Below, piece after piece: positions 2,306 to 12,734 of a DNA stretch of 27,575 nt (position 1 is its first letter; the number at the start of each line of letters is the position of its first letter). The position numbers and the translations under genes were made by a program. The notes under the pieces are model-generated. The model ran no database searches. It worked only from the letters and a program-made list of their open reading frames with translations, and was not told the DNA's origin. The DNA lies in the IMG/VR virus record IMGVR_UViG_3300048797_000368, positions 1 through 27,575 of that record; one strand, written 5' to 3'. Origin of the DNA: a virus.

Positions 2306-2493
2306 ACGCCAACCAGCAGGCCCGGGCCAAAGCCAAGGGCAGATGTCAGCCCCGGATCAAACGGATCCAGATGTTCTTCTCCGCCGGCAAGGCCCACGGT
2401 TTGGTTGGCGGAACCGTGCGTTTTCTTTTACTTGATGAGGTGGACGGTTTGGAGGATCAGCATGCCAATCCTGCCTTAGGCCCTCTCTTCTGA
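2302..2493 (+). CDS. Small basic hypothetical protein (63 aa)
   Basis: I chose ATG 2302 over the upstream in-frame ATG 2269 because GAAAGGA (2291-2297) lies just upstream and the start overlaps the stop of the 54-aa gene. The N-terminal third is strongly basic (QQARAKAKGRCQPRIKRIQ) and the middle is hydrophobic and glycine-containing (GLVGGTVRFLLLDEV). The stop codon at 2491-2493 straddles the loop and 3' arm of the intrinsic terminator, so transcription probably ends right at the end of this gene. No homologous family is recognised. A nucleic-acid-binding role would be speculation from charge only. Confidence 0.45.
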   Translation: MNANQQARAKAKGRCQPRIKRIQMFFSAGKAHGLVGGTVRFLLLDEVDGLEDQHANPALGPLF

Positions 2494-2502
2494 GGGCCTT
2501 TT
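2478..2502 (+). terminator. Rho-independent terminator after small-gene pair
   Basis: AGGCCCTC (2478-2485) pairs perfectly with GAGGGCCT (2492-2499) across a 6-nt loop (TCTTCT), and the stem is followed by a T run (TTTT, 2499-2502). The 8-bp GC-rich stem plus U tract is a classical intrinsic terminator. It overlaps the stop codon of the 63-aa gene. It separates int and the small genes from the lysis/late genes, implying that a new promoter or antitermination is needed downstream. Confidence 0.8.
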
Positions 2503-2506
2503 CTGA

Positions 2507-2528
2507 TTTGGCGAAACGTTTCGCCAAA
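2507..2528. promoter_or_regulatory. Perfect 22-bp palindrome, copy 1 (operator candidate)
   Basis: The half-site TTTGGCGAAAC is followed immediately by its exact reverse complement. The identical palindrome occurs again at 7945-7966; including one flanking base on each side (A before, A after), 24 bp are identical. This copy lies 5 bp beyond the terminator and 43 bp before the holin candidate's ATG. The central GAAACGTTTC with a CG dyad resembles LacI/GalR-type operators, so a repressor binding site is one reading. In RNA it would be a 9-bp stem with an ACGT loop but without a following U tract. Confidence 0.6.
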
Positions 2529-2571
2529 AGCTGATACCCCCTGGGACCCACCATTCCCTTGGAGGTTCCCC

Positions 2572-2994
2572 ATGTTCAAGTTCTTCAAGGACCTGTGGTC
2601 CGCGGCCTACAACCTGCATCCCGACACGTGCAAGCGAACGGTGCGGATCGCCGGTATCCTTGCGGTCCTGCTCGTCGTGGTGGTCCTCTTCGGGGCCGCC
2701 GCCATCGCCGGCCGGGTGGTGCCTGCCGAAAACCCGGTCTGGGAGGCGATCCTCCAGACCCGGCTCGCCTTCGTCCGGATGGGGCTGGCCATTCCGGTTC
2801 TGATCCTCGCCGCGGTGTCCGGGGTGACGCTCTTCCAGGTGCTGGAGAATACCCAACTGGGAAAACGGCTCCTGATCTGGGCCGATGGTGACGATCCCCA
2901 GGTGAAGGCGCAGAAGACCCGGAACGCCGGGGCCCTGCTCTCTGCACTGATTCTGTCCTGCATTGTGGGCCTGCTTCTTGGAGTCCTCCGATGA
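2572..2994 (+). CDS. Three-TM membrane protein, candidate holin
   Basis: The 140-aa product has three clear hydrophobic segments at about residues 24-46, 66-90 and 119-139, separated by short loops, with basic/charged ends (MFKFFKD, TQLGKRLL). GGAGG at 2561-2565 precedes ATG 2572. It overlaps the following lytic transglycosylase by 4 nt (ATGA), an arrangement typical of holin-endolysin pairs. Three TM spans match class I holin topology, although it is longer than many holins and I recognise no specific holin family. It would sit in the inner membrane and time release of the endolysin. Because the endolysin carries its own export signal, a pinholin-like role is also possible. Confidence 0.5.
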   Translation: MFKFFKDLWSAAYNLHPDTCKRTVRIAGILAVLLVVVVLFGAAAIAGRVVPAENPVWEAILQTRLAFVRMGLAIPVLILAAVSGVTLFQVLENTQLGKRLLIWADGDDPQVKAQKTRNAGALLSALILSCIVGLLLGVLR

Positions 2995-3548
2995 AGCGGC
3001 TCTTGATCCCGGCCTTTCTGGTCGGGCTCGCCCTGTCGGCTGCCCCCTCCCGCCCTTTGGCTGGTGAGGTTGTGCCCTGGCAGGGCCTTTTCATTGCTGC
3101 CGCCGGCCCGCGCTGGGTGGACCGCGCCGCCCAGGTTCAGGCCGAAAGCGGCTTCAACGCGGCTGCGGTGTCCTCCTGTGGCGCCCTCGGTCCGGCCCAG
3201 TGGATGCCCAGCAGCTGGGCGGATGCCATCAAGAAGGGCTGGGCGCGCCCGGGGAGCTCGCCGCGCGACCCTGCCGCCGCCATCCCGGCGCAGCACGCCT
3301 ACATGCTCTGGCTGGAGGCCTACTGCGGTGGCCTGGACTCCGCCCTGGGCGGTTACAACGCAGGCCCTGGCTCCGTACGCAAAGCCCAACGGCTTGCCCA
3401 GGCCCTGGGCCTGACCGATCAAGCCGCCTGGCTCCGGACCCTGCCCCGGGTCACAGGCGAAGCGCATGCCGGAGAGACCCGGGGCTACATCCTTCACAAC
3501 GCCAACTACCGCGCCCAGATCCGGGCGCGCCTTCCTGCGCGGGAGTAG
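2991..3548 (+). CDS. Exported SLT-family lytic transglycosylase (endolysin)
   Basis: This 185-aa protein has an N-terminal signal peptide (MKRLLIPAFLVGLALSAAPS, then PLAGE) followed by a lysozyme-like SLT domain. The catalytic glutamate is Glu52 in the motif AESGFN. GPAQWMPSSW (67-76) corresponds to the GLMQ-type substrate loop, GGYNAGPG (120-127) is the signature Asn-Ala-Gly-Pro motif, and GETRGYILHNANY (161-173) is the C-terminal Tyr motif. The family cleaves the MurNAc-GlcNAc bond of peptidoglycan to 1,6-anhydro products. Coupling to the upstream holin candidate and the downstream TM/coiled-coil proteins points to host lysis. The signal peptide suggests Sec export, as in SAR or secreted endolysins. 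The hydrophobic segment is alanine-rich, so whether it is cleaved or retained is uncertain. Confidence 0.88.
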   Translation: MKRLLIPAFLVGLALSAAPSRPLAGEVVPWQGLFIAAAGPRWVDRAAQVQAESGFNAAAVSSCGALGPAQWMPSSWADAIKKGWARPGSSPRDPAAAIPAQHAYMLWLEAYCGGLDSALGGYNAGPGSVRKAQRLAQALGLTDQAAWLRTLPRVTGEAHAGETRGYILHNANYRAQIRARLPARE

Positions 3549-3550
3549 AT

Positions 3551-4231
3551 GTGCTGCCCTTTGAGATGGAGAAGCTGCTCCCACGTGTTCCCCGGTCCTG
3601 GATCGTGGGTGCCATGGGGGTCTTTCTAATATTGGCCGTGGCCATTGGCTGGCGGATGTTCAGGCCTGCCGTGGCGGCGCCCGCGCCGCCCCAGGCCGCA
3701 AAGAACCACGATGCTGGGATGGAGGCCGTGGGTGAGGCGAAAGCCCACGCACAAGTCGCCCAGGCCCGGGACCTAGAGCTCCAAGCGGCCAGGGCCAAGG
3801 TGCTGACTCTTGAGGCGGCGTTGGCTACGTTCCGGGCCAAGGCACCAGAAGCTCCGAGTTCCGGGCTGGCCGTGCCTGACCAACGGGACCAGGTGATCCT
3901 CAAGCAGGATGGGGTGATTCAGGCCCAGGACGATCGTGCCGATCTTTTGGAGGCGCAGGTGGCCACCCGGACGGCAGAAGCCCTGGCCAGCGACCAGGCC
4001 TCGGTTGCCTTCCGCTTGGAGGGGGAAGCCCTCCGTAAAAGCCTGCGCCCCATTCATACCCGAGCCCTGGGTGGCATCTGGAACCCAGCGGATCAGACCT
4101 ATGGCGTTTTCTACGAACAGGACGTATGGCGGGTGCGCCTCGGCGTCGATGTGCTTCAGCAGCGGCTCCCGGTCCAGGCCGGCGGCGGTGTTCACAACAC
4201 GGTCCAGGTGCGGGCCGGTTTCACACTTTAG
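3551..4231 (+). CDS. TM-anchored coiled-coil protein, candidate spanin-like lysis protein
   Basis: The start is not clear-cut. GTG 3551 has CGGGAG (3540-3545) at suitable spacing, while ATG 3566 is the alternative; I use GTG 3551 (226 aa). The N-terminus has one TM span (about residues 17-35, SWIVGAMGVFLILAVAIGW). A Pro/Ala linker and a long Ala/Glu/Gln/Arg coiled coil (about 55-155) follow. The C-terminal 65 residues alternate in a beta-like pattern and end in an aromatic-containing strand (VQVRAGFTL). An inner-membrane anchor plus periplasmic coiled coil directly after the endolysin fits an i-spanin/Rz-like role, and the C-terminal part could contact the outer membrane. No recognised Rz family motif is seen and no separate lipoprotein Rz1 was found, so the assignment is contextual. 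Confidence 0.5.
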   Translation: MLPFEMEKLLPRVPRSWIVGAMGVFLILAVAIGWRMFRPAVAAPAPPQAAKNHDAGMEAVGEAKAHAQVAQARDLELQAARAKVLTLEAALATFRAKAPEAPSSGLAVPDQRDQVILKQDGVIQAQDDRADLLEAQVATRTAEALASDQASVAFRLEGEALRKSLRPIHTRALGGIWNPADQTYGVFYEQDVWRVRLGVDVLQQRLPVQAGGGVHNTVQVRAGFTL

Positions 4232-4239
4232 GGGGTTAT

Positions 4240-4575
4240 GTGAACCTTTCACAGATCGTCTCCGCGGCCGCAGTGATGGCGGTGATTTCCGGAGGAATTT
4301 GGGGCATCATCCGCTCCCTGTTGGCCCGTGATCGCAAGTCTGTAGAAGACCAGCAGACGGCCATGTGGAAACAATTGAACAGCCTTCGCCAGGAACTCAA
4401 GGAAGCCCAGATCGAACTGGGGAAACTCAAGGAGCGGATCCAGCTCACGCCGGACTGGGACAAACGCATCCAGCTCATGGAGGAGAAGTTGGAGAAGCGC
4501 TTCGACAAGATCTCAACGGAATTCCGAGAGTTCTTTACGAAGGCCTTCGAAACCTTCCAGCAGAAGCATGGATAA
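4240..4575 (+). CDS. Small TM plus coiled-coil phage protein (DUF2730/holin-like)
   Basis: The start is GTG 4240, chosen because AGGGGG (4230-4235) lies directly upstream and the preceding gene stops at 4231. The 111-aa product has one N-terminal TM segment (about residues 5-28) and then a charged heptad-rich coiled coil (RDRKSVEDQQTAMWKQL onward, to about residue 108). The size and TM/coiled-coil architecture resemble Mu-phage DUF2730-type proteins and XhlA-like lysis accessory proteins. Location at the end of the lysis block supports a membrane role in lysis. A specific family assignment cannot be made by eye. Confidence 0.5.
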   Translation: MNLSQIVSAAAVMAVISGGIWGIIRSLLARDRKSVEDQQTAMWKQLNSLRQELKEAQIELGKLKERIQLTPDWDKRIQLMEEKLEKRFDKISTEFREFFTKAFETFQQKHG

Positions 4576-4599
4576 CCGATCGAGAAGGGAAGCACCTCC

Positions 4600-5373
4600 A
4601 TGTTAACGGTTAAGGTTGACCCCCTAGGTGCGTTGGGTGCCCTCTCAGAGGCAGAGCAGCGGCAGCTGCCCTTTGCCGCGGCCCTTGGCCTGAAGTGGAC
4701 CGGCACCGATGCCCAGGAGGCGGAACGCTCCCGCATGAAGCAGCAGTTCAAACTGCGCCGGGAGACGTTCAACCTGCGAGGCGTGAAGATCGCCAAGGAG
4801 GACCGCGCCACCAAGACCTCCTGGTGCTTGATCATCCAAGTGGCTGAAGAGACTCAGTACCTGGATAAATTCGAATCCATCAACGGCGGTCAAAAGGTTC
4901 CGGTGGCAGGTCGGCACTACCTGTGGATACCCAATGACAAGGTCTTCAAGAACAAGGTCATCTCTGCCGATGACCCCCTGCGACCGCGGAAGCTGAACCT
5001 GCATCGTGACCCGCACGGAAGGATCATCGGAGATCAACGCACCTTCATGATCCATGCCCACAACGGCGCCATCCTCGTCCTGCAACGCACAGGTAAGGCC
5101 GGGCACAAGGGGTTCAAGGCGGGATCGATGAAGGCCCTGACCCTGGACAACGTCGCTACGGGCATGGGGCCAAGGCAGAGGACCGAGCGGGCCCTGCAAT
5201 CCAGGAAGGTTCGCTATGGCGATCAGACAACCATCAAGCTCTATACCCTGAAGACTCGGGTGCGGGTGCCTGTAAAGCTGGAGTTCTTCACCACCATCGC
5301 GCGCAGCGTGGAGACGACGTCGGTCTCGAGGTTCAGGCAGGCCATGGACCAGGCCCTGAGGACGGCACGGTGA
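4600..5373 (+). CDS. Putative minor tail protein, lambda gpZ-like
   Basis: The 257-aa product starts at ATG 4600 behind AAGGGA. Its layout parallels lambda minor tail protein Z. It has an Ala-rich helical N-terminus (QRQLPFAAALGLKWTG), a basic stretch (RMKQQFKLRRETFNLRG), a beta-rich centre with HNGAILVLQRTGK, and a C-terminal part (TLKTRVRVPVKLEF) followed by an amphipathic helix with RFRQAMDQALRTAR. In lambda, Z acts in tail completion between the FII/U region and the tube. Here the gene sits upstream of terminase instead. The similarity is my reading of pattern, not an alignment. Another head-tail or neck protein is possible. Confidence 0.45.
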   Translation: MLTVKVDPLGALGALSEAEQRQLPFAAALGLKWTGTDAQEAERSRMKQQFKLRRETFNLRGVKIAKEDRATKTSWCLIIQVAEETQYLDKFESINGGQKVPVAGRHYLWIPNDKVFKNKVISADDPLRPRKLNLHRDPHGRIIGDQRTFMIHAHNGAILVLQRTGKAGHKGFKAGSMKALTLDNVATGMGPRQRTERALQSRKVRYGDQTTIKLYTLKTRVRVPVKLEFFTTIARSVETTSVSRFRQAMDQALRTAR

Positions 5374-5387
5374 GGGGTGGAGGTGTC

Positions 5388-5463
5388 ATGCATAAGTGTT
5401 GCAATAATGCGCTATGCATCATTAATGATGCATTATGCAACATTCAGGGTCCTTCCAGGACCC
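5388..5463. repeat. AT-rich nested inverted repeats upstream of terS
   Basis: Three structures are stacked here. A perfect 20-bp palindrome has half-site ATGCATCATT (5414-5423) and mirror half 5424-5433. A longer imperfect inverted repeat encloses it, with TGTTGCAATAATGC (5397-5410) against GCATTATGCAACA (5430-5442), differing by one extra A. A separate 7-bp hairpin follows, GGGTCCT (5447-5453) and AGGACCC (5457-5463) with a 3-nt loop. ATGCAT hexamers recur at 5388, 5414 and 5428. The block is strikingly A+T-rich in a G+C-rich genome and lies just before the small terminase gene. That is the usual place for cos/pac sites and for late-operon control elements. Confidence 0.6.
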
Positions 5464-5555
5464 CTCCACGAGGGTGTCGCACAACAGCTCGCCATTTGAC
5501 TAGCTACAGGCCGCGAAAGTCGTTTCCGCTTCCGGACGCCAGGGAGGGATGACCG
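5464..5555. other. Intergenic remainder before terminase
   Basis: This stretch runs from the hairpin to the terS start. It contains no frame with convincing coding character. GGGAGGGA (5542-5549) is the ribosome binding site for ATG 5556. A start at ATG 5549 in another frame is out of register with the terminase homology. No clear promoter was recognised. Confidence 0.4.
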
Positions 5556-6047
5556 ATGGACCTGGGCCGGCTGTCCCAAAAGGATGTTGCCAAGCTCCTG
5601 CGCGTTGAGGACCGGACCGTCCGCAACCTGAAGGACGAGAGCATCCCGTGCCATGGGGAAGGCCGCGGCATGTATTACGTTTGGGATGAGGTGGAGCCCT
5701 GGTGGTACGAACGGCGCCTCCGCCTGGCCGGGATGAAGAAGACCGGAGACGCCAGCGTTCCGATCCTCGCCGTTTCCGAAGCACGCAAGGCGGCAGCCGA
5801 TGCGGAAATGGCGGAAATGAAGGCGGAAACGATGCGCGGCAGCCACGTAAACGCGGCTGCAATGGATGTTATCTATAGCGCCCACGTTGCCTCGGCCAAG
5901 TCCAAGCTGCTGGCGATGAGCCCCCGGGTGTCGGTTCAGTTGGTCGATGGCATGTCGGTGGCTGAACGCCGGGCCATGATCGATGAGGGTGTGTACGCGG
6001 CCCTCGCTGAACTGGAGCAGGGCGACGAGGTCTTGGAAACCGCATGA
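5556..6047 (+). CDS. terS: Terminase small subunit, Nu1-like
   Basis: The 163-aa protein has an N-terminal winged helix-turn-helix (about residues 6-50: LSQKDVAKLLRVEDRTVRNL, a Gly-rich wing, then YYVWDEVEPWWYER). Next comes a charged Ala/Glu/Lys helical connector (SEARKAAADAEMAEMKAETM) and a helical C-terminus, as in lambda Nu1/DUF1441 proteins. These bind cos or pac DNA and recruit the large subunit. Its position immediately ahead of, and overlapping (ATGATG), the GpA-like large subunit confirms the role. A strong SD (GGGAGGG) precedes ATG 5556. The inverted-repeat block immediately upstream is a plausible recognition site. Confidence 0.85.
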   Translation: MDLGRLSQKDVAKLLRVEDRTVRNLKDESIPCHGEGRGMYYVWDEVEPWWYERRLRLAGMKKTGDASVPILAVSEARKAAADAEMAEMKAETMRGSHVNAAAMDVIYSAHVASAKSKLLAMSPRVSVQLVDGMSVAERRAMIDEGVYAALAELEQGDEVLETA

Positions 6048-7939
6048 TGGTGACTACCTTTGTGACGCCCGAGGACCTCGAGAAGGCGCGCCAGGTCATG
6101 CGCCGGGTGCGCAGGAACTGGGCGGCGCCCCCGCGCATGACGGTGACGGAGTGGGCGGATGCTCGGAGGTTCCTCAGCTCCGAAAACTGCGCCGAGCATG
6201 GGAAGTACAAAAGCTCCCGGGCCCCCTATCAGCGTGGCCCGATGGACGCCATCTCGGACTGGCGCATCGAGACGGTGACCATCATGTCCTCCGCCCAGGT
6301 GGGCAAGAACGAGATCTGTCACAACGCCCTGGGCTGGATCATGGACCTGAACCCGGGGCCCGTGCTGTGGGTGGCACCCACTGACAAGGCCGGCGAGAAG
6401 TGGAGCAAGACCCGGCTCGCCCCCATGCTCCGGGATACCCCCTGCCTGCGGAACAAGGTCTCGGACCCCAAGAGCCGAGACACCGGCAATACCATCCTGG
6501 AAAAGCAGTTCCCGGGCGGGCTGATCTTCATCGTCGGTTCCAACGCGCCGTCCGGCCTGTCCTCCCAGCCCATCCAATACGTGTTTTGCGACGAGGTAGA
6601 CCGGTTCGATGACAGCGCCGGCACCGAGGGGGACATCCTCGATCTGGCCACCAAGCGCACCACCACCTACGTGGGCCGCCGCAAGCACGTGTTTGTCTCC
6701 ACCCCGGGCATCAAGGGGGCCTCCCGCATCTCCAAGAGCTGGGAAGAGTCCGACCAGCGCCGCTACTTCATGCCCTGCCCCCATTGCGCCTCCTCCATTC
6801 TTTTCCAGTGGAAGGCGGAGGACGGCACCCGCCGGGTGCTCTGGCCCCAGGACCCGCCCCAGCCCGAGAAGGCCTATTACGTCTGCGACCAGTGCGGCGG
6901 GGAGATCACGGACGCCCACAAGCACAAGATGCTGACCGCGGGGAACTGGGTCTCCACCCGGCCGGAGGTGGTGGGCCACGCCGGCTTCCACCTCAACGAG
7001 CTCTATTCCCCCTGGAAAACCTTCGGCGAGGTCGCCTCCGATTTCGTGAAGAAGAAGGCCCGGGGCGTGAAGAGCTTCATGACCTGGATCAATACCTCCC
7101 TGGGCGAGCCGTGGGACCCCCGGGACGGCGAGGACCTCCATGTCCAGGGCCTCAAGAAGCGCCGGGAGGCCTACGCCGCCGAGGTACCGCTGGGCGTGGC
7201 CTACCTGACCCTGGGCGGGGACATCCAGGATGACCGCTGGGAATACATCGTCCGCGGCTGGGGGCTGGGCGGCCAGAGCTGGCTAATCAAGCGGGGCATG
7301 GTCACCGGCAACCCTGGCCTCGCCGGCTTCTGGGACGAGGTGGACCAGGTGCTGCTCTCCGAGTTCCGCCACGTCTCCGGCTACCCGATGCGCATCTCCG
7401 CGGCGTGCCTTGATTCCGGAGGCCATTTCACCAAACAGGTCACAGCCTTCTGTAAGGCCCGGTCCCACCGGCGGGTCTTCGCGATCAAGGGCTCCTCCCG
7501 GCCCATGCAGAAGCCTGTGGCCCGGTCCAACAACAAATCCAAGCTCTGGCTCATCGATACGGTGGCCATGAAGGACACCTTCTTCGCCTGCCTGCGGGTG
7601 GAGAAGGAGGGCCCCGGCTACCTCCACTGGCCCGAGAACCTCATGGATGATTATTTCGACCAGATCACCGCCGAGAAGGTGGTGTACCGCACGGCGTCCG
7701 GGATCACCCGGCGGGTCTACCAGAAGATCGCCGAGGACATCCGCAACGAGGCCTTGGACTGCGAGGTCTATGCGGCGGCCGCCTGGGAGATCTGCAACGT
7801 CAGCCCTGGCGACCTTGAGCGGATGCTGAAGGCCCTAGCCGAGCAGGTCGGACGGGTCCAGGCCGCAACCCCGGCCCCGCTCCAGACCGGCGCGGCGCCT
7901 GCGAAAACCCGGCGCATGCGCAGTGCCGGTATCCGCTGA
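6044..7939 (+). CDS. terL: Terminase large subunit, GpA family
   Basis: This 631-residue packaging motor is close to the length of lambda gpA (641 aa). The ATPase domain has a Walker A variant, SSAQVGKNE (about 82-90, Lys88), and a Walker B, YVFCDEVDRF (179-188, catalytic Glu184). A zinc-knuckle pair, CPHC (245-248) and CDQC (281-284), lies in the middle, as is common in GpA homologues. The C-terminal RNase H-like nuclease begins around LGGDIQDDRWE, with Asp393 as a likely metal ligand. It cuts concatemeric DNA at cos and translocates it into the prohead through the portal. The ATG overlaps the terS stop, indicating coupled synthesis. The C-terminal 40 residues are Ala/Pro/Arg-rich, consistent with a portal-contacting tail. 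Confidence 0.95.
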   Translation: MMVTTFVTPEDLEKARQVMRRVRRNWAAPPRMTVTEWADARRFLSSENCAEHGKYKSSRAPYQRGPMDAISDWRIETVTIMSSAQVGKNEICHNALGWIMDLNPGPVLWVAPTDKAGEKWSKTRLAPMLRDTPCLRNKVSDPKSRDTGNTILEKQFPGGLIFIVGSNAPSGLSSQPIQYVFCDEVDRFDDSAGTEGDILDLATKRTTTYVGRRKHVFVSTPGIKGASRISKSWEESDQRRYFMPCPHCASSILFQWKAEDGTRRVLWPQDPPQPEKAYYVCDQCGGEITDAHKHKMLTAGNWVSTRPEVVGHAGFHLNELYSPWKTFGEVASDFVKKKARGVKSFMTWINTSLGEPWDPRDGEDLHVQGLKKRREAYAAEVPLGVAYLTLGGDIQDDRWEYIVRGWGLGGQSWLIKRGMVTGNPGLAGFWDEVDQVLLSEFRHVSGYPMRISAACLDSGGHFTKQVTAFCKARSHRRVFAIKGSSRPMQKPVARSNNKSKLWLIDTVAMKDTFFACLRVEKEGPGYLHWPENLMDDYFDQITAEKVVYRTASGITRRVYQKIAEDIRNEALDCEVYAAAAWEICNVSPGDLERMLKALAEQVGRVQAATPAPLQTGAAPAKTRRMRSAGIR

Positions 7940-7944
7940 AACCA

Positions 7945-7966
7945 TTTGGCGAAACGTTTCGCCAAA
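7945..7966. promoter_or_regulatory. Perfect 22-bp palindrome, copy 2 (operator candidate)
   Basis: This is identical in all 22 bp to the palindrome at 2507-2528 (half-site TTTGGCGAAAC plus its reverse complement). It starts 5 bp after the terL stop codon and ends 32 bp before the ATG of the connector gene. Both copies sit just after a stop and shortly before a gene start. In mRNA it could fold into a 9-bp hairpin between the terminase and head-gene parts of the transcript. Regulatory protein binding, RNA processing or attenuation are all possible, and nothing in the window decides between them. Confidence 0.6.
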
Positions 7967-7998
7967 AACAGAGGGGGCGCCGGGAGCATTCTTCGGGC

Positions 7999-8214
7999 AT
8001 GGCAGGAATCACACTCACTCAAGCAGAAGGCAAGCTGGCCGAATGGATGGCAGCGGATAGCGCCGTCGCCGCCGGACAGGCCTACAAGATCCATGGTCGT
8101 GAGATGACCCGGGCCAACGCTGCGGAGATCATGGCCAACATCGAGAAGTGGGACGGCTGGTGTCGGCGCCTGGGCCGGCGCGGGCTCCGCATCCGGGGAG
8201 GCACCCCGTCATGA
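7999..8214 (+). CDS. gpW-position head protein, DUF6148-like
   Basis: The 71-aa product resembles the DUF6148 family of small phage proteins encoded between terL and portal. It has an N-terminal helix (ITLTQAEGKLAEWMAADSAV), a short beta hairpin with YKIHGREMTRANA, and a second helix (AEIMANIEKWDGWCRRL) with a basic tail. Lambda gpW, in the same map position and of similar size, is a head-completion protein. By position and size this protein may have the same job, preparing the portal for tail attachment. The stop overlaps the portal start (ATGA at 8211-8214). Confidence 0.7.
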   Translation: MAGITLTQAEGKLAEWMAADSAVAAGQAYKIHGREMTRANAAEIMANIEKWDGWCRRLGRRGLRIRGGTPS

Positions 8215-9827
8215 GCCGCGCCGAGACCATCCGGGCCTTCAAGAAGGCCATCGAACCCAACCTCATGGACAAGGCCATCGGGATCTTCAGCCCCCGGGCC
8301 ATGCACCAGCGTACGACCCAGCGCGGTCTCATGGCCGTGGCCGGGGCCTGGGATGGCGGGTCCCGGAGCCGCCGCGCGGTTTCGGAATGGCAGACGCCCA
8401 CGGGCTCGGCCGATGCCGACCTGCTCTATGACCTCGAGACCATGCGGGACCGCTCCCGGGCCCTGGTCCGGAATAACCCTTTGGCCGGCGGCGCCATCAA
8501 CACGGTGGTCACCAACGTGGTGGGGACCGGGATCAAGGCCCGGCCCCGGATCAACGCCAAGCGCCTGGGGCTGACCCCCGACGCCGCCGAGCTCTGGGAG
8601 CAGCTGGCCCGGGAGGAGTGGCGGCTCTTCTGTGAATCGCCGGAATGCGACCTCACCCGGAACGACAATTTCTACGGGCTGCAGAGCCTGGTCTTCCGCT
8701 CCACCCTGGAGTGCGGGGACGTCTTCTCCCTGCTCCCCTTCAAGCGCCGCCCAGGCAATGCCTATGGCCTGAAGATCCAGATCATCGAGGGGGACCGGAT
8801 CTGCAACCCCCAGGGCCAGCGGGAAACCGACACCTGCGCCGGCGGCGTGGAGATGGACGCCACCGGGGCACCCATCCGCTACCACCTCCTGAAGCAGCAC
8901 CCCGGTTCCATCGCGCCCACCAGCCGGGAATGGGAGCCCATCGAGGCCTTCACCTCCCGGGGCACCCGGCGGATCCTGCACCATTTCGACCGCCGGCGGG
9001 TCGGCCAGAGCCGGGGGGCCCCCTACCTGGCCCCCGTCATCGAACTCATCAAGCAGCTGGGGGAATACACCAACGCCGAGATCATGGCGGCCGTGCTGAA
9101 CGGGATGTTCTGCGTCTTCGTCACCAGCCCCACCGGGGAAGGCTTCGGCGATGGCCTGGGCTCCACCCAACTCAACCTCACCGGGGGGGACTCAGGCAAG
9201 GGCCAGGGCGATGACATCAAGCTGGGGAACGGCGCCATCGTGGATCTGCTCCCGGGCGAAAAAATCGAGGTCGCCGACCCGAAACGGCCCAACGCGGCCT
9301 TCGATCCCTTCGTCATGGCGATCCTCCGCCAAATTGGCGTGGCCCTGGAGCTGCCCTTCGAAGTCCTGATCAAGCACTTCACCTCCTCCTACACGGCGGC
9401 GCGCGCCGCCCTCCAGGAGGCCTGGCGCTTCTTCCGGGTCCGGCGGGAATGGCTGATCAAGAGCTTCTGCGCCCCGGTCTACGAGGCCTGGCTCGAGGAG
9501 GCCATTGCCTCCGGGCGGCTGGACGCCCCTGGCTTCTTCGATGACCCCGCCATCCGCCGGGCCTACCTGGGCTGCATGTGGATCGGCGATGCCATGAGCC
9601 AGATCGACCCGGTGAAGGAGGCGGAAGCCGCCGGCCTGCGCATGGAAATGGGGGTCAGCACCCTCGAGAACGAAACCATCGCCATGACGGGCGGGGACTG
9701 GGAAGAGAACACCATCCAGCAAGCGAAGGAACACCTGCGCCGGAAGGCCGCGGGCCTGATCCTGGCCCCGGCCCCCATCCGCATCACCGGCACACCGGCA
9801 CCCGCTCCACTCCCGGGGGAAGAATGA
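8211..9827 (+). CDS. Portal protein, lambda gpB family
   Basis: The 538-aa product is comparable to lambda B (533 aa). The family signature VRNNPLAGGAINTVVTNVVG is near residues 86-105, followed by GTGIKARPR. Other conserved parts are CGDVFSLLPF, the NPQGQRETD segment, PYLAPVIELIKQLGEYTNAE and SSYTAARAALQEAWRFFRVRR in the clip/crown region. Twelve copies form the ring through which DNA enters the prohead and to which the neck attaches. I chose ATG 8211 over the upstream ATG 8148 because GGGGAGG (8195-8201) precedes it and it overlaps the connector stop. The stop overlaps the start of the S49 protease (ATGA at 9824-9827). Confidence 0.95.
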   Translation: MSRAETIRAFKKAIEPNLMDKAIGIFSPRAMHQRTTQRGLMAVAGAWDGGSRSRRAVSEWQTPTGSADADLLYDLETMRDRSRALVRNNPLAGGAINTVVTNVVGTGIKARPRINAKRLGLTPDAAELWEQLAREEWRLFCESPECDLTRNDNFYGLQSLVFRSTLECGDVFSLLPFKRRPGNAYGLKIQIIEGDRICNPQGQRETDTCAGGVEMDATGAPIRYHLLKQHPGSIAPTSREWEPIEAFTSRGTRRILHHFDRRRVGQSRGAPYLAPVIELIKQLGEYTNAEIMAAVLNGMFCVFVTSPTGEGFGDGLGSTQLNLTGGDSGKGQGDDIKLGNGAIVDLLPGEKIEVADPKRPNAAFDPFVMAILRQIGVALELPFEVLIKHFTSSYTAARAALQEAWRFFRVRREWLIKSFCAPVYEAWLEEAIASGRLDAPGFFDDPAIRRAYLGCMWIGDAMSQIDPVKEAEAAGLRMEMGVSTLENETIAMTGGDWEENTIQQAKEHLRRKAAGLILAPAPIRITGTPAPAPLPGEE

Positions 9828-11182
9828 GACTCCAAGACCTCGTTTCCGCCCCGTGGGCGATCACCCCTCAGATGCATGAGGAGGTCCAGGCCATCTACGC
9901 CCGGCACTGCCGTGGCGAAAAGATCGACCTCCGGGCGATGGAGGCCTCCCTCGGCAAGTCGCTGGCCAATGAGCCGGCGCCCTACCAGATCGACCAAGGG
10001 GTGGCCATCCTCACCGTCGAAGGCGTGATCGCCAAGCGGATGACCCTCCTCTCAAAAATATCCGGCGGGGCCTCCAGTTCCTTCGTCGGCCAGCAGTTCC
10101 AGGCGGCCCTGGCCGACCCGGACGTGAAGGCCATCATCCTCGTCATCGATTCCCCCGGCGGGGCCGTGGATGGCACCCAGGAACTGGGCAACCTGATCGC
10201 CTCCGCCCGGGGCACCAAACCGGTGCTCGCCTTCACGGATGGCCAGATGTGCAGCGCTGCCTACTGGATCGGCAGCGCGGCGGACCAGATCTTCATCTCG
10301 GGTGACACCACCCTCCTGGGGAGCATTGGCGTGCTGATGCCCCACGTGGACGTCTCCGGTGCGGATGCCATGGCCGGTGAGAAGCACACCGTCATCACCG
10401 CCGGCAAGTACAAGGCCGCGGCCCATGCCCACGCCCCTCTTTCCGAGGATGGCCTGGGGGTGCTCCAGACCCTGGTGGATGCCATCTACACGGCCTTCGT
10501 GAACGATGTGGCCCGGAACCGTGGCGTCGAGCCCGGGACCGTGGTGCTGGACATGGCTGAAGGCCGTGTGTTCGTAGGACGACAGGCCGTCGAGGCAGGC
10601 CTGGTGGACGGTGTTGCCACCCTGGAAGCCCTCATCACGCAACTTTCCCTGGGCGCGTCCGGTCCGGCCCATCCCCACGGCGCCGGTGCTGCGCTGAACC
10701 CCTCAACCCTTTTGATGGAGACAACCATGAACAAGGAAGAAATCCTGGCGCAGCACCCTGACGTCGCAGCGGCTCTGGTGGCTGATGGCCACGCCCTGGG
10801 AGCCACCGCCGAACGCCACCGGATCCAGGCTGTCCTGGCCTCCGGCCTCCCCGGGCACGACGTGCTCGTCCAGCAGCTCGCCTTCGACGGCAAGACCACT
10901 GGTCCGGAAGCGGCCATGCAGGTCCTGGTCGCCGAGCGCACCAAGCGCGCGGGCGTGATGACCGACATCGAAACCACCGCCCCGAAACCGGCCCCCCACG
11001 CCCCCGCACCCAGCATCCCTGCGCCGGATGTCGAGAGCAACCTCCCCCTGGAGGAGCAGTGCAAGGCCGCCTGGGACAAGAGCCCTGAGGTCCGGGGAGA
11101 GTTCGGGACGCTGCAGGTCTACACGGCCTTCCGGCAGGCTGAAGCCGCCGGCCAGGCTCGCATCCTCGACCAGAAGAAATAA
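9824..11182 (+). CDS. Prohead protease, S49 (SppA/lambda gpC) family, with scaffold tail
   Basis: The 452-aa protein (lambda C is 439 aa) has an S49 serine peptidase domain at about residues 55-275. The oxyanion-type motif IDSPGGAV is at 109-116. The catalytic Ser144 lies in MCSAAYWIGSAAD, and the Lys partner is in the AGKYKAAA motif (Lys195/197), giving the Ser-Lys dyad of SppA-like enzymes. The C-terminal 150 residues are helical and Ala/Pro-rich and function as scaffold in this family. The start at ATG 9824 overlaps the portal stop. The enzyme matures the prohead by cleaving scaffold. A well-placed internal start (see next entry) likely yields the scaffold alone. Confidence 0.92.
   Translation: MRLQDLVSAPWAITPQMHEEVQAIYARHCRGEKIDLRAMEASLGKSLANEPAPYQIDQGVAILTVEGVIAKRMTLLSKISGGASSSFVGQQFQAALADPDVKAIILVIDSPGGAVDGTQELGNLIASARGTKPVLAFTDGQMCSAAYWIGSAADQIFISGDTTLLGSIGVLMPHVDVSGADAMAGEKHTVITAGKYKAAAHAHAPLSEDGLGVLQTLVDAIYTAFVNDVARNRGVEPGTVVLDMAEGRVFVGRQAVEAGLVDGVATLEALITQLSLGASGPAHPHGAGAALNPSTLLMETTMNKEEILAQHPDVAAALVADGHALGATAERHRIQAVLASGLPGHDVLVQQLAFDGKTTGPEAAMQVLVAERTKRAGVMTDIETTAPKPAPHAPAPSIPAPDVESNLPLEEQCKAAWDKSPEVRGEFGTLQVYTAFRQAEAAGQARILDQKK
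10727..11182 (+). CDS. Nested in-frame scaffold protein (Nu3-like)
   Basis: ATG 10727 is codon 302 of the protease gene. GGAG (10717-10720) lies 6 nt upstream, a good ribosome binding site inside a coding frame. The resulting 151-aa product begins MNKEEILAQHPDVAA and continues through a helical region (ATAERHRIQAVLASG) and a Pro/Ala linker. Lambda Nu3 (132 aa) is made the same way from the 3' end of gene C and is the internal scaffold for capsid assembly. The lambda organisation is established, but use of this start is an inference from the RBS and from the position of the domain boundary. Confidence 0.65.
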   Translation: MNKEEILAQHPDVAAALVADGHALGATAERHRIQAVLASGLPGHDVLVQQLAFDGKTTGPEAAMQVLVAERTKRAGVMTDIETTAPKPAPHAPAPSIPAPDVESNLPLEEQCKAAWDKSPEVRGEFGTLQVYTAFRQAEAAGQARILDQKK

Positions 11183-11193
11183 GGAGCCCCGCC

Positions 11194-11736
11194 ATGACGA
11201 CGCTCGCACTCAACACCATCCGGGAATTCGCCATGGGCGACCGGATCGCCTTTGACCTGTCCACCGCCGCCAAGATTTTCCAGGGCGCCGCGGTCGGCCT
11301 CAACCTCGCCACCGGCTATGTCCGGCCCCTGGTGGCCGGCGACCTGTTCGTCGGCTTCGCCGAAGCCAGGATGGACAACACCCTGGGCCAGGCCGGTGAC
11401 GCCCGGGTCATCGTTGTCGCCGAGGGCCGGGTCCAGCTGGCCATCAACGGCCTGGCCATCACGGACGTGGGCAAGGCGGTCTACGCCGCCGACGACGACA
11501 CCTTCACTCTCACGCCCACCGGCAACAGCTATGTGGGCAAGCTCACGCGCTACGTTTCCAGCGGCGTGGGCATGGTGACCTTCGAGAAGTGCTGCGGGGG
11601 GATCCTCACGGCGCTCACCGACAACTCCGGCGGGACCGCCACCACCACCCTGGCCGCCATCACCGACGTCCCCACCAAGAACGCGATCGCCTCACTCGCT
11701 GCCCAGGTGAACGCCATCACCCAAATGCTCAAGTAA
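11194..11736 (+). CDS. Head decoration protein, gpD/DUF2190-like with fibre-like tail
   Basis: The 180-aa product lies between the protease/scaffold and major capsid genes, the position of lambda D. Residues 1-130 are beta-rich and resemble DUF2190-type capsid decoration proteins: FDLSTAAKIFQGAAVGLN, a GDLFVGFAEARMDNTLG turn and VAEGRVQLAINGL. These trimerise on the capsid surface and stabilise it. The C-terminal 45 residues have a different character: ALTDNSGGTATTTLAAITD followed by a short helix (KNAIASLAAQVNAITQML). This motif recurs in head-fibre-type proteins and may form a trimeric appendage. AAGGAGC precedes ATG 11194. Confidence 0.7.
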   Translation: MTTLALNTIREFAMGDRIAFDLSTAAKIFQGAAVGLNLATGYVRPLVAGDLFVGFAEARMDNTLGQAGDARVIVVAEGRVQLAINGLAITDVGKAVYAADDDTFTLTPTGNSYVGKLTRYVSSGVGMVTFEKCCGGILTALTDNSGGTATTTLAAITDVPTKNAIASLAAQVNAITQMLK

Positions 11737-11748
11737 CCGGAGGACATC

Positions 11749-12693
11749 ATGGAACTTATTACCAGCAGGGCCATCATCGGCACCTACTTCCTGCGGCTCG
11801 AGCAGAACATCGGCGCGTCCTGGGTTGGCCTCGTGTCCAACTACTTCACCAGCGACCAGAGCTCCGAGACCTACGCCTGGCTCACCCAGTCCCCCCAGAT
11901 GCAGGAATGGGTGGACGGCCGCCATGCCAAGGGCTTCACGGAAAACGGCATCACCATCAAGAACCTGCATTTCGAGGCCACCATCGAGTTCAAGCTCCGG
12001 GACCTCCGCCGGGACAAGACCGGCCAGGTCATGGTGCGCGTGAACGACATGGCGGACCGCACCAACGCCCATTGGGCCAAGCTGCTGTCCACGCTCATCC
12101 TCAACGGCGCCACCACCGTCTCCTACGATGGCAAGTACTTCTTCGCCACGGATCACTCCGAGAAGAACAGCGGCGTCCAGAGCAACAAGCTCTCCGTGGA
12201 CATCTCCGCCCTGCCCACCCAGGTCCATGGAGCCACCACCGCCCCCAGCGTGGAGGAAATGCAGCAGGCCATCCTCCTGGGCATCGCCCAGATCAAGGCC
12301 TTCAAGGACGATCAGGGCGAGCTCATGAACGAGGGCGCCAGCCAGTTCCTGGTCATGGTCCCCACCAACCTCTGGCTCATCGCCGAGGCCGCCACCAAGA
12401 ACACCGTTCTCACCAGCAACGCCATCAATCTGATCCCCGGCCTCGTGGGCATCCAGATCGGCGTGGCCGAGAACGCCCGGCTCAACACCTGGACCGACCG
12501 GTTCGTGATCCTGCGCACCGATGGCAACATCAAGCCCCTCATCCGTCAGGAGGAGGAGAAGGTTCAGATCAAGGCCAAGGCCGAGGGTTCGGAGTTCGAG
12601 TTCGACAACGACGCCCACCAGTACGGCGTGGATACCTGGCGCAACGCCGGGACCGGCCTGTGGCAGGGAACCTGCCAGGTGATCCTGACCTAA
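11749..12693 (+). CDS. Major capsid protein, Mu gpT-like
   Basis: The 314-aa product (Mu T is 305 aa) matches the Mu-like major head subunit pattern. It has an N-terminal helix, TYAWLTQSPQMQEWVDGR (the family's YGWL...EWVG block), ENGITIKNLHFEATIEFKLRD (the E-loop-like region) and YDGKYFFATDHSE (family DG-x-x-FF-x-x-x-H). The C-terminus contains DTWRNAGTGLWQGTCQVI, typical of the family's GYGLWQ ending. The protein forms the HK97-fold shell. The upstream genes are lambda-like, so the capsid gene is of a different lineage from its neighbours. CCGGAGG precedes ATG 11749. A very strong hairpin follows the gene. Confidence 0.88.
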   Translation: MELITSRAIIGTYFLRLEQNIGASWVGLVSNYFTSDQSSETYAWLTQSPQMQEWVDGRHAKGFTENGITIKNLHFEATIEFKLRDLRRDKTGQVMVRVNDMADRTNAHWAKLLSTLILNGATTVSYDGKYFFATDHSEKNSGVQSNKLSVDISALPTQVHGATTAPSVEEMQQAILLGIAQIKAFKDDQGELMNEGASQFLVMVPTNLWLIAEAATKNTVLTSNAINLIPGLVGIQIGVAENARLNTWTDRFVILRTDGNIKPLIRQEEEKVQIKAKAEGSEFEFDNDAHQYGVDTWRNAGTGLWQGTCQVILT

Positions 12694-12705: not shown

Positions 12706-12734
12706 GGAGGGTGGCGGCAACCCCGCCACCCTCC
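12706..12734 (+). promoter_or_regulatory. 12-bp perfect hairpin after capsid gene
   Basis: GGAGGGTGGCGG (12706-12717) pairs perfectly with CCGCCACCCTCC (12723-12734) around the loop CAACC. No U tract follows, so it is not a standard intrinsic terminator. It may act as a partial attenuator or as a 3' stabiliser that keeps capsid mRNA more abundant than downstream messages. The hairpin ends just before the ribosome binding site (GGAGG, about 12739-12743) of the next gene and could also modulate its translation. Confidence 0.7.

Follow-up and report, generated by a model that had tools for sequence, protein, structure and literature searches.

Identical 22-bp palindromes ahead of the lysis and head genes of an uncultured phage as predicted activator sites of two Mor/C-dependent late promoters

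In bacteriophage Mu, the C protein activates the Plys promoter and also the PI promoter, which lies ahead of the head-protease gene (PMC4287176, PMC4461284), and its targets are related dyads found at Plys, PI, PP and Pmom (PMC4287176). The Mu C gene is positioned directly upstream of the lysis gene. For the Mu Mor protein, a 16-bp dyad centred at -43.5 was reported to replace the -35 element of the promoter (PMC4390567). Here we describe a pair of palindromes in an incomplete phage contig from IMG/VR (27,575 bases, the whole of which was analysed and is referred to below as the window), which, judging from the sequence comparisons presented below, are very likely the sites of a Mor/C-family activator at two late promoters, one serving the lysis genes and the other the head genes.

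The palindrome TTTGGCGAAACGTTTCGCCAAA is a perfect 22-bp dyad present in the window at 2507-2528 (site 1) and 7945-7966 (site 2), with 0 mismatches between the copies and no other occurrences, in agreement with the coordinates and identity given in an earlier note on this DNA. A search for a third copy in the window, with up to 3 mismatches allowed, returned nothing (expectation in shuffled sequences: 0). The note had also mentioned one more identical base on each side, and indeed an A flanks the 22-mer at both ends, which extends the exact repeat to 24 bases. The longest exact repeat in 100 dinucleotide shuffles of the window was 21 bases, and a perfect arm of 11 bases was seen in 3 of 100 such shuffles; taken together, the palindrome and its repetition are thus far beyond chance, and the two-copy palindrome is real. 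The distances reported earlier from the stop codon to the palindrome (13 bp for site 1 and 5 bp for site 2) and from the palindrome to the next ATG (43 bp, ATG at 2572, and 32 bp, ATG at 7999) are likewise correct.

The gene map agrees with the placement of the palindromes ahead of the lysis genes (site 1) and of the packaging/head genes (site 2). Upstream of site 1 (dyad centre 2517.5) lies a 74-aa ORF without a family match (2269-2493). An intrinsic terminator overlooked in the earlier note (AGGCCCTC-TCTTCT-GAGGGCCT followed by TTTCTGATTT; 2478..2499, on the + strand, as are all features from here to the head operon) ends 7 bp before site 1 and is predicted to shield late promoter 1 from upstream transcription. 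Downstream of the palindrome we predict a -10 hexamer CACCAT (2549..2554), which carries A2 and T6 and is located 31.5 bp from the dyad centre, and a GGAGG Shine-Dalgarno sequence follows (2561..2565) at +43.5 from the dyad centre; by analogy with the geometry of Mu Mor (PMC4390567), the transcript is predicted to start at 2561. The first gene of the lysis region encodes a small hydrophobic protein without a family match (2572..2994), which is holin-like by position only, and the second one an SLT-type endolysin (2991..3548; PF01464, E 2e-12; PHROG endolysin, E 6e-21). Further downstream are the genes for the small (5556..6047; PHROG 57, E 1.9e-20) and the large terminase subunit (terL, 6044..7939; PHROG 15, E 3.7e-227). 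Site 2 (dyad centre 7955.5) is positioned just past the terL stop (7939) and ahead of the gene for a head-tail adaptor (DUF6148; 7999..8214; PHROG 118, E 3.7e-15; PF19645 matched from residue 1). Its predicted -10 hexamer is CATTCT (7987..7992), again with A2 and T6 and 31.5 bp from the dyad centre, and the ATG of the adaptor gene falls at +43.5, i.e. at the predicted +1, which would make the message leaderless. The head operon that is predicted to be read from site 2 continues with genes for the portal, maturation protease, a structural protein and the major head protein (8211..12693; PHROG matches). The window also encodes a tyrosine integrase and a tape measure protein.

Two other symmetric elements were noticed in this region. 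Upstream of the small terminase gene, a second perfect palindrome, ATGCATCATTAATGATGCAT (5414-5433), is found inside a longer inverted array, and the closest TerL relative (L003, see below) shares AATGATGCAT at the equivalent place (from 7232 on); it is possibly a cos site or a terminase-binding site. Just past the major head protein gene there is a strong inverted repeat, GGAGGGTGGCGG-CAACC-CCGCCACCCTCC (12706-12734), probably a terminator or a processing hairpin.

L003, the closest relative by TerL (68% identical), carries diverged copies of both sites at syntenic positions: TTTCCCGAAATGTTTCGCCATA before the endolysin gene (4480-4501) and TTTTCCGAAACGTTTCGCCATA between terL and the adaptor gene (9790-9811), with 4 and 3 mismatches, respectively, to the window 22-mer (as counted by the script). 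Both copies are intact in the right half, GTTTCGCCA, and in the core, but the left half is no longer symmetric in its outer part; the asymmetry of the two copies is alike and oriented with transcription. Between the window and L003 no homology is detectable for the genes that flank site 1, either upstream or downstream (SLT endolysin vs. M15 peptidase; integrase vs. other early genes), hence the element is an island of conservation. The L003 gene directly upstream of site 1 (4135-4449) belongs to the Mor/C family (PF08765, E 1.8e-13; PHROG late transcriptional activator, E 2.2e-13), and a search of PDB sequences with its product reported the structures of Mu Mor and C as the only matches, with weak scores. 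No DNA relative of the window was found among cultured phages, relatives identified by the major head protein (at most 64% identical) or the minor tail protein contained no further copies of the site, and no close TerL was found in 289 genomes from the phylum of L083.

A scan of IMG/VR for the 16-mer core GGCGAAACGTTTCGCC, made by DNA alone and with no protein criterion, reported twelve matches in about nine distinct lineages (all metagenome fragments), of which two have the core at the position of the lysis genes and one at the position of gene I; the other matches are located within ORFs or between terminators, and we regard them as chance or unclear. In the near-identical Mu-like contigs L204 and L209, a Mor gene (E 3.5e-24) is followed by two small genes, an intrinsic terminator, GGGCGAAACGTTTCGCCC, a holin gene and an SLT endolysin gene, so that a terminator, the palindrome and the genes for a small membrane-like protein and an SLT endolysin follow one another as they do in the window; in L209 a variant, AGCGAAGCGTTTCGCT, precedes the gene-I protease. 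In L208 (Mu-like, with a Mu-type transposase and Portal_Mu) the 16-mer lies just ahead of an amidase endolysin gene, and the record includes an upstream activator gene (PHROG 836, late transcriptional activator, E 4.6e-21). In L200, which comes from the same metagenome as L208, the 16-mer is found 35 bp ahead of a gene-I-type head protease. In these phages, which are unrelated to that of the window, the sites ahead of lysis genes (L204/L209 and L208) and ahead of the gene-I protease (L200 and, as the variant, L209) correspond to the positions of Plys and PI in Mu. The dyad core comprises 12-16 bp in three lineages and a perfect 22 bp in the window. Mor/C-family genes were found in L003, L204/L209 and L213, the last of which carries a Mu-type transposase. 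The palindrome of L202/L206 is positioned between two terminators and has no clear function, and neither L184, where a Mor gene is accompanied by a pattern match inside a coding ORF, nor L078, where a Mor gene is accompanied by a repeated palindrome with one copy between convergent genes, was counted.

With eight sites (two each from the window, L003 and L209, one each from L208 and L200) lined up by their dyad centres, an A2/T6 hexamer starts at an offset of exactly 31.5 bp in six of them and at 30.5-32.5 bp in all eight; with 1-bp slack, every other offset is occupied in at most four of the eight, barring the neighbours of 31.5 and the interior of the palindrome. In tests designed after the sites had been seen, this spacing was reached by none of 5000 shuffles for the eight sites, by none of 5000 for six sites (one of each related pair removed), and by 6-8 of 5000 if only five sites were used; for the four sites of the window and L003 alone, the exact offset is not significant (3082/5000) and the offset with slack only marginal (104/5000). 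The position +43.5 is occupied by ATG in four sites (window site 2, L208, L200 and the PI-type site of L209) and by GGAGG in two (site 1 of the window and of L003), i.e. in 6/8 altogether, and at no other offset between 12.5 and 99.5 is ATG or GGAGG shared by two or more sites. In site 2 of L003 the ATG is found at +42.5, and site 1 of L204/L209 has no start codon at +43.5, its ATG being 127.5 bp from the centre. No sigma-70 promoter pair was found in the window between 1900 and 8300. If +43.5 is read as the transcription start, the -10 hexamer spans -12 to -7, its expected place, and several of the late mRNAs would be leaderless or nearly so.

From this combination of features we infer the following mode of action. 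A dimer of a phage-encoded Mor/C-family activator would bind both palindromes as operators of late promoters; the dyad would stand in for the -35 element and recruit the host RNA polymerase to a weak -10 element about 31 bp from its centre, and transcripts would begin about 43.5 bp away from that centre. Site 1, located just past the intrinsic terminator, would be the equivalent of Plys and drive the lysis and terminase genes, from a start at the Shine-Dalgarno sequence; site 2 would be the equivalent of PI and drive the head genes, from a start at the A of the ATG, i.e. as a leaderless mRNA.

The 27.6 kb of this incomplete contig contain no Mor/C gene. The integrase of the window phage occupies the region where L003 has its activator, and the phage's own activator is presumably encoded in the unsequenced part. 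The DNA-reading helices of the three activators that accompany the palindrome are RRIEQI (L003), RRVEQI (L204) and RRVEQL (L213), whereas Mu C has PQIYQI at this place and Shewanella phage MuM16-1 has RRISQI; with three cases, it is only suggestive that an RR(I/V)EQ-type helix goes with this palindrome. Pseudomonas phage Bise, which has been cultured, carries another dyad, TAAAGCACTTTA (L179, 9322-9333), directly behind its Mor gene; 42.5 bp separate the centre of this dyad from the annotated start of the gene that follows, and CATCAT occupies the position of the -10 element. This candidate C site suggests that the geometry is general and that the operator sequence varies with the activator. 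In L013 (2814-3065), L025 (~3940-4195) and L078 (2781-2975) a Mor-family gene is located immediately downstream of terL, unlike in Mu; no palindrome of the window type was found with the Mor genes just downstream of terL (L012, L013, L025 and others).

Among the alternatives, the one that survives best, even if we consider it improbable, is that the palindromes are bound by a repressor of the phage (LacI/GalR-like or other), or else by a regulator of the host, which would hold the late genes off. It would be compatible with the CG-centred perfect dyad GAAACGTTTC and with the overlap of the site with the promoter region. However, the fixed spacing of 31.5 and 43.5 bp fits an activator that replaces the -35 element, and Mor/C-family genes accompany the site in three phage lineages, so that the LacI/GalR-like repressor proposed in the earlier note gives way to the better-supported Mor/C activator. 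No LacI-family regulator was recognised among the scanned genes of the window and L003, in a scan not dedicated to LacI. As for the host, the 20-mer was found only once, in a Kiritimatiellota MAG, among 84,980 prokaryote species genomes (257 billion bases, a set that may not include the host itself), which argues that no sampled host uses such a regulon and speaks against a host-wide repeat; the exact 22-mer has no other match among the 2.9 million viral contigs of IMG/VR. What stands of the earlier interpretation is a common DNA-binding protein (as a prediction), the placement at late genes and the idea of a phage regulator whose gene lies beyond the window; the host repeat or regulon and the mobile hairpin, discussed below, do not.

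Less probable still is a dispersed centromere of a phage-plasmid partition system such as that of N15 or sopC of the F plasmid, with which the locus has in common that one palindrome recurs unchanged at scattered places in a temperate phage. When TerL relatives were screened blindly for repeated dyads, terminator-like repeats made up most of the result, together with sopC-like sites in L009: this relative has the sopC/N15-like TTGGGACCACGGTCCCAA at 3444 and 5850 and a third one, GTGGGACCACGGTCCCAGC, just upstream of the first, which suggests that L009 may be a phage-plasmid. The palindromes of the window differ from sopC in sequence and are found only at the starts of late operons, at a conserved, promoter-linked distance to the -10 element and the start codon; moreover, the common asymmetry of the L003 copies follows the direction of transcription, L213 has a Mu-type transposase, and no partition genes were seen (in the partial contigs, a search made without a positive control found no SopB-type gene).

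We give very little credence to a role of the palindromes as hairpins in the 5' leader of the mRNA, where they would govern its stability or translation. The copies of the window do fold as 9-bp stems, but the stem is not conserved in L003, where folding does not exceed that of shuffled sequences (z = +0.29 and +1.20 for the two copies), and the predicted transcripts begin downstream of the element. Strong folding of the window copies and none in those of L003 speaks for a DNA site, and the loss of the fold in this sibling also counts against the mobile hairpin considered in the earlier note. That the palindromes are boundary or recombination sequences for the exchange of a lysis-terminase cassette, which they bracket in the window and in L003, is hardly credible, as it would leave unexplained both the spacing to the -10 element and start codon and the single sites at the Plys and PI positions of other phages.

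Returning to the Mor/C-dependent promoters, we consider it possible, rather than probable, that they represent a leaderless class of late promoters, in which the Mor/C dyad located exactly 43.5 bp before an AUG or a bare Shine-Dalgarno sequence sets the starts of transcription and translation together, and in which one operator, GGCGAAACGTTTCGCC, and activators with an RR(I/V)EQ helix are common to transposable Mu-like phages and to phages of the integrase type. The promoter logic is already known from Mu; what would be new is that different phages share an operator, that a non-transposable phage has it, and that its spacing to the start codon would make messages leaderless. The prediction would extend the late switch of Mu to an apparently non-transposing phage, provide a specific operator for a subgroup of Mor/C proteins outside Mu and an operator-activator pair for probing DNA recognition in this family, and allow base-exact prediction of late transcription starts in uncultured phages, leaderless messages included.

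In comparison with the Mu middle promoter Pm, the sites described here would share with the Mor target a dyad that replaces the -35 element and has its centre at -43.5; however, the 16-bp dyad of Pm consists of 5-bp repeats with a 6-bp spacer and serves middle genes, whereas here the dyad is continuous and precedes late operons. The differences from the Mu late promoters Plys and PI concern the operator, which has another sequence than the Mu C sites and is perfectly symmetric in the window, the tyrosine integrase of the window phage, the TerL family (PHROG 15 in the window vs. PHROG 38 in the Mu-like L213) and the leader: Mu Plys has one (in our reading, its C site is TTATTTCCTGTCACCATAA, centred about 67 bp before the ATG), whereas here the start codons are located at or just after the predicted +1. 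With Plys and PI the locus has in common a dyad operator and a weak -10 element without a -35 element, ahead of the lysis and the head-protease genes, as well as, presumably, an activator of the Mor/C family, whose gene in L003 is positioned directly upstream of the lysis promoter, as it is in Mu.
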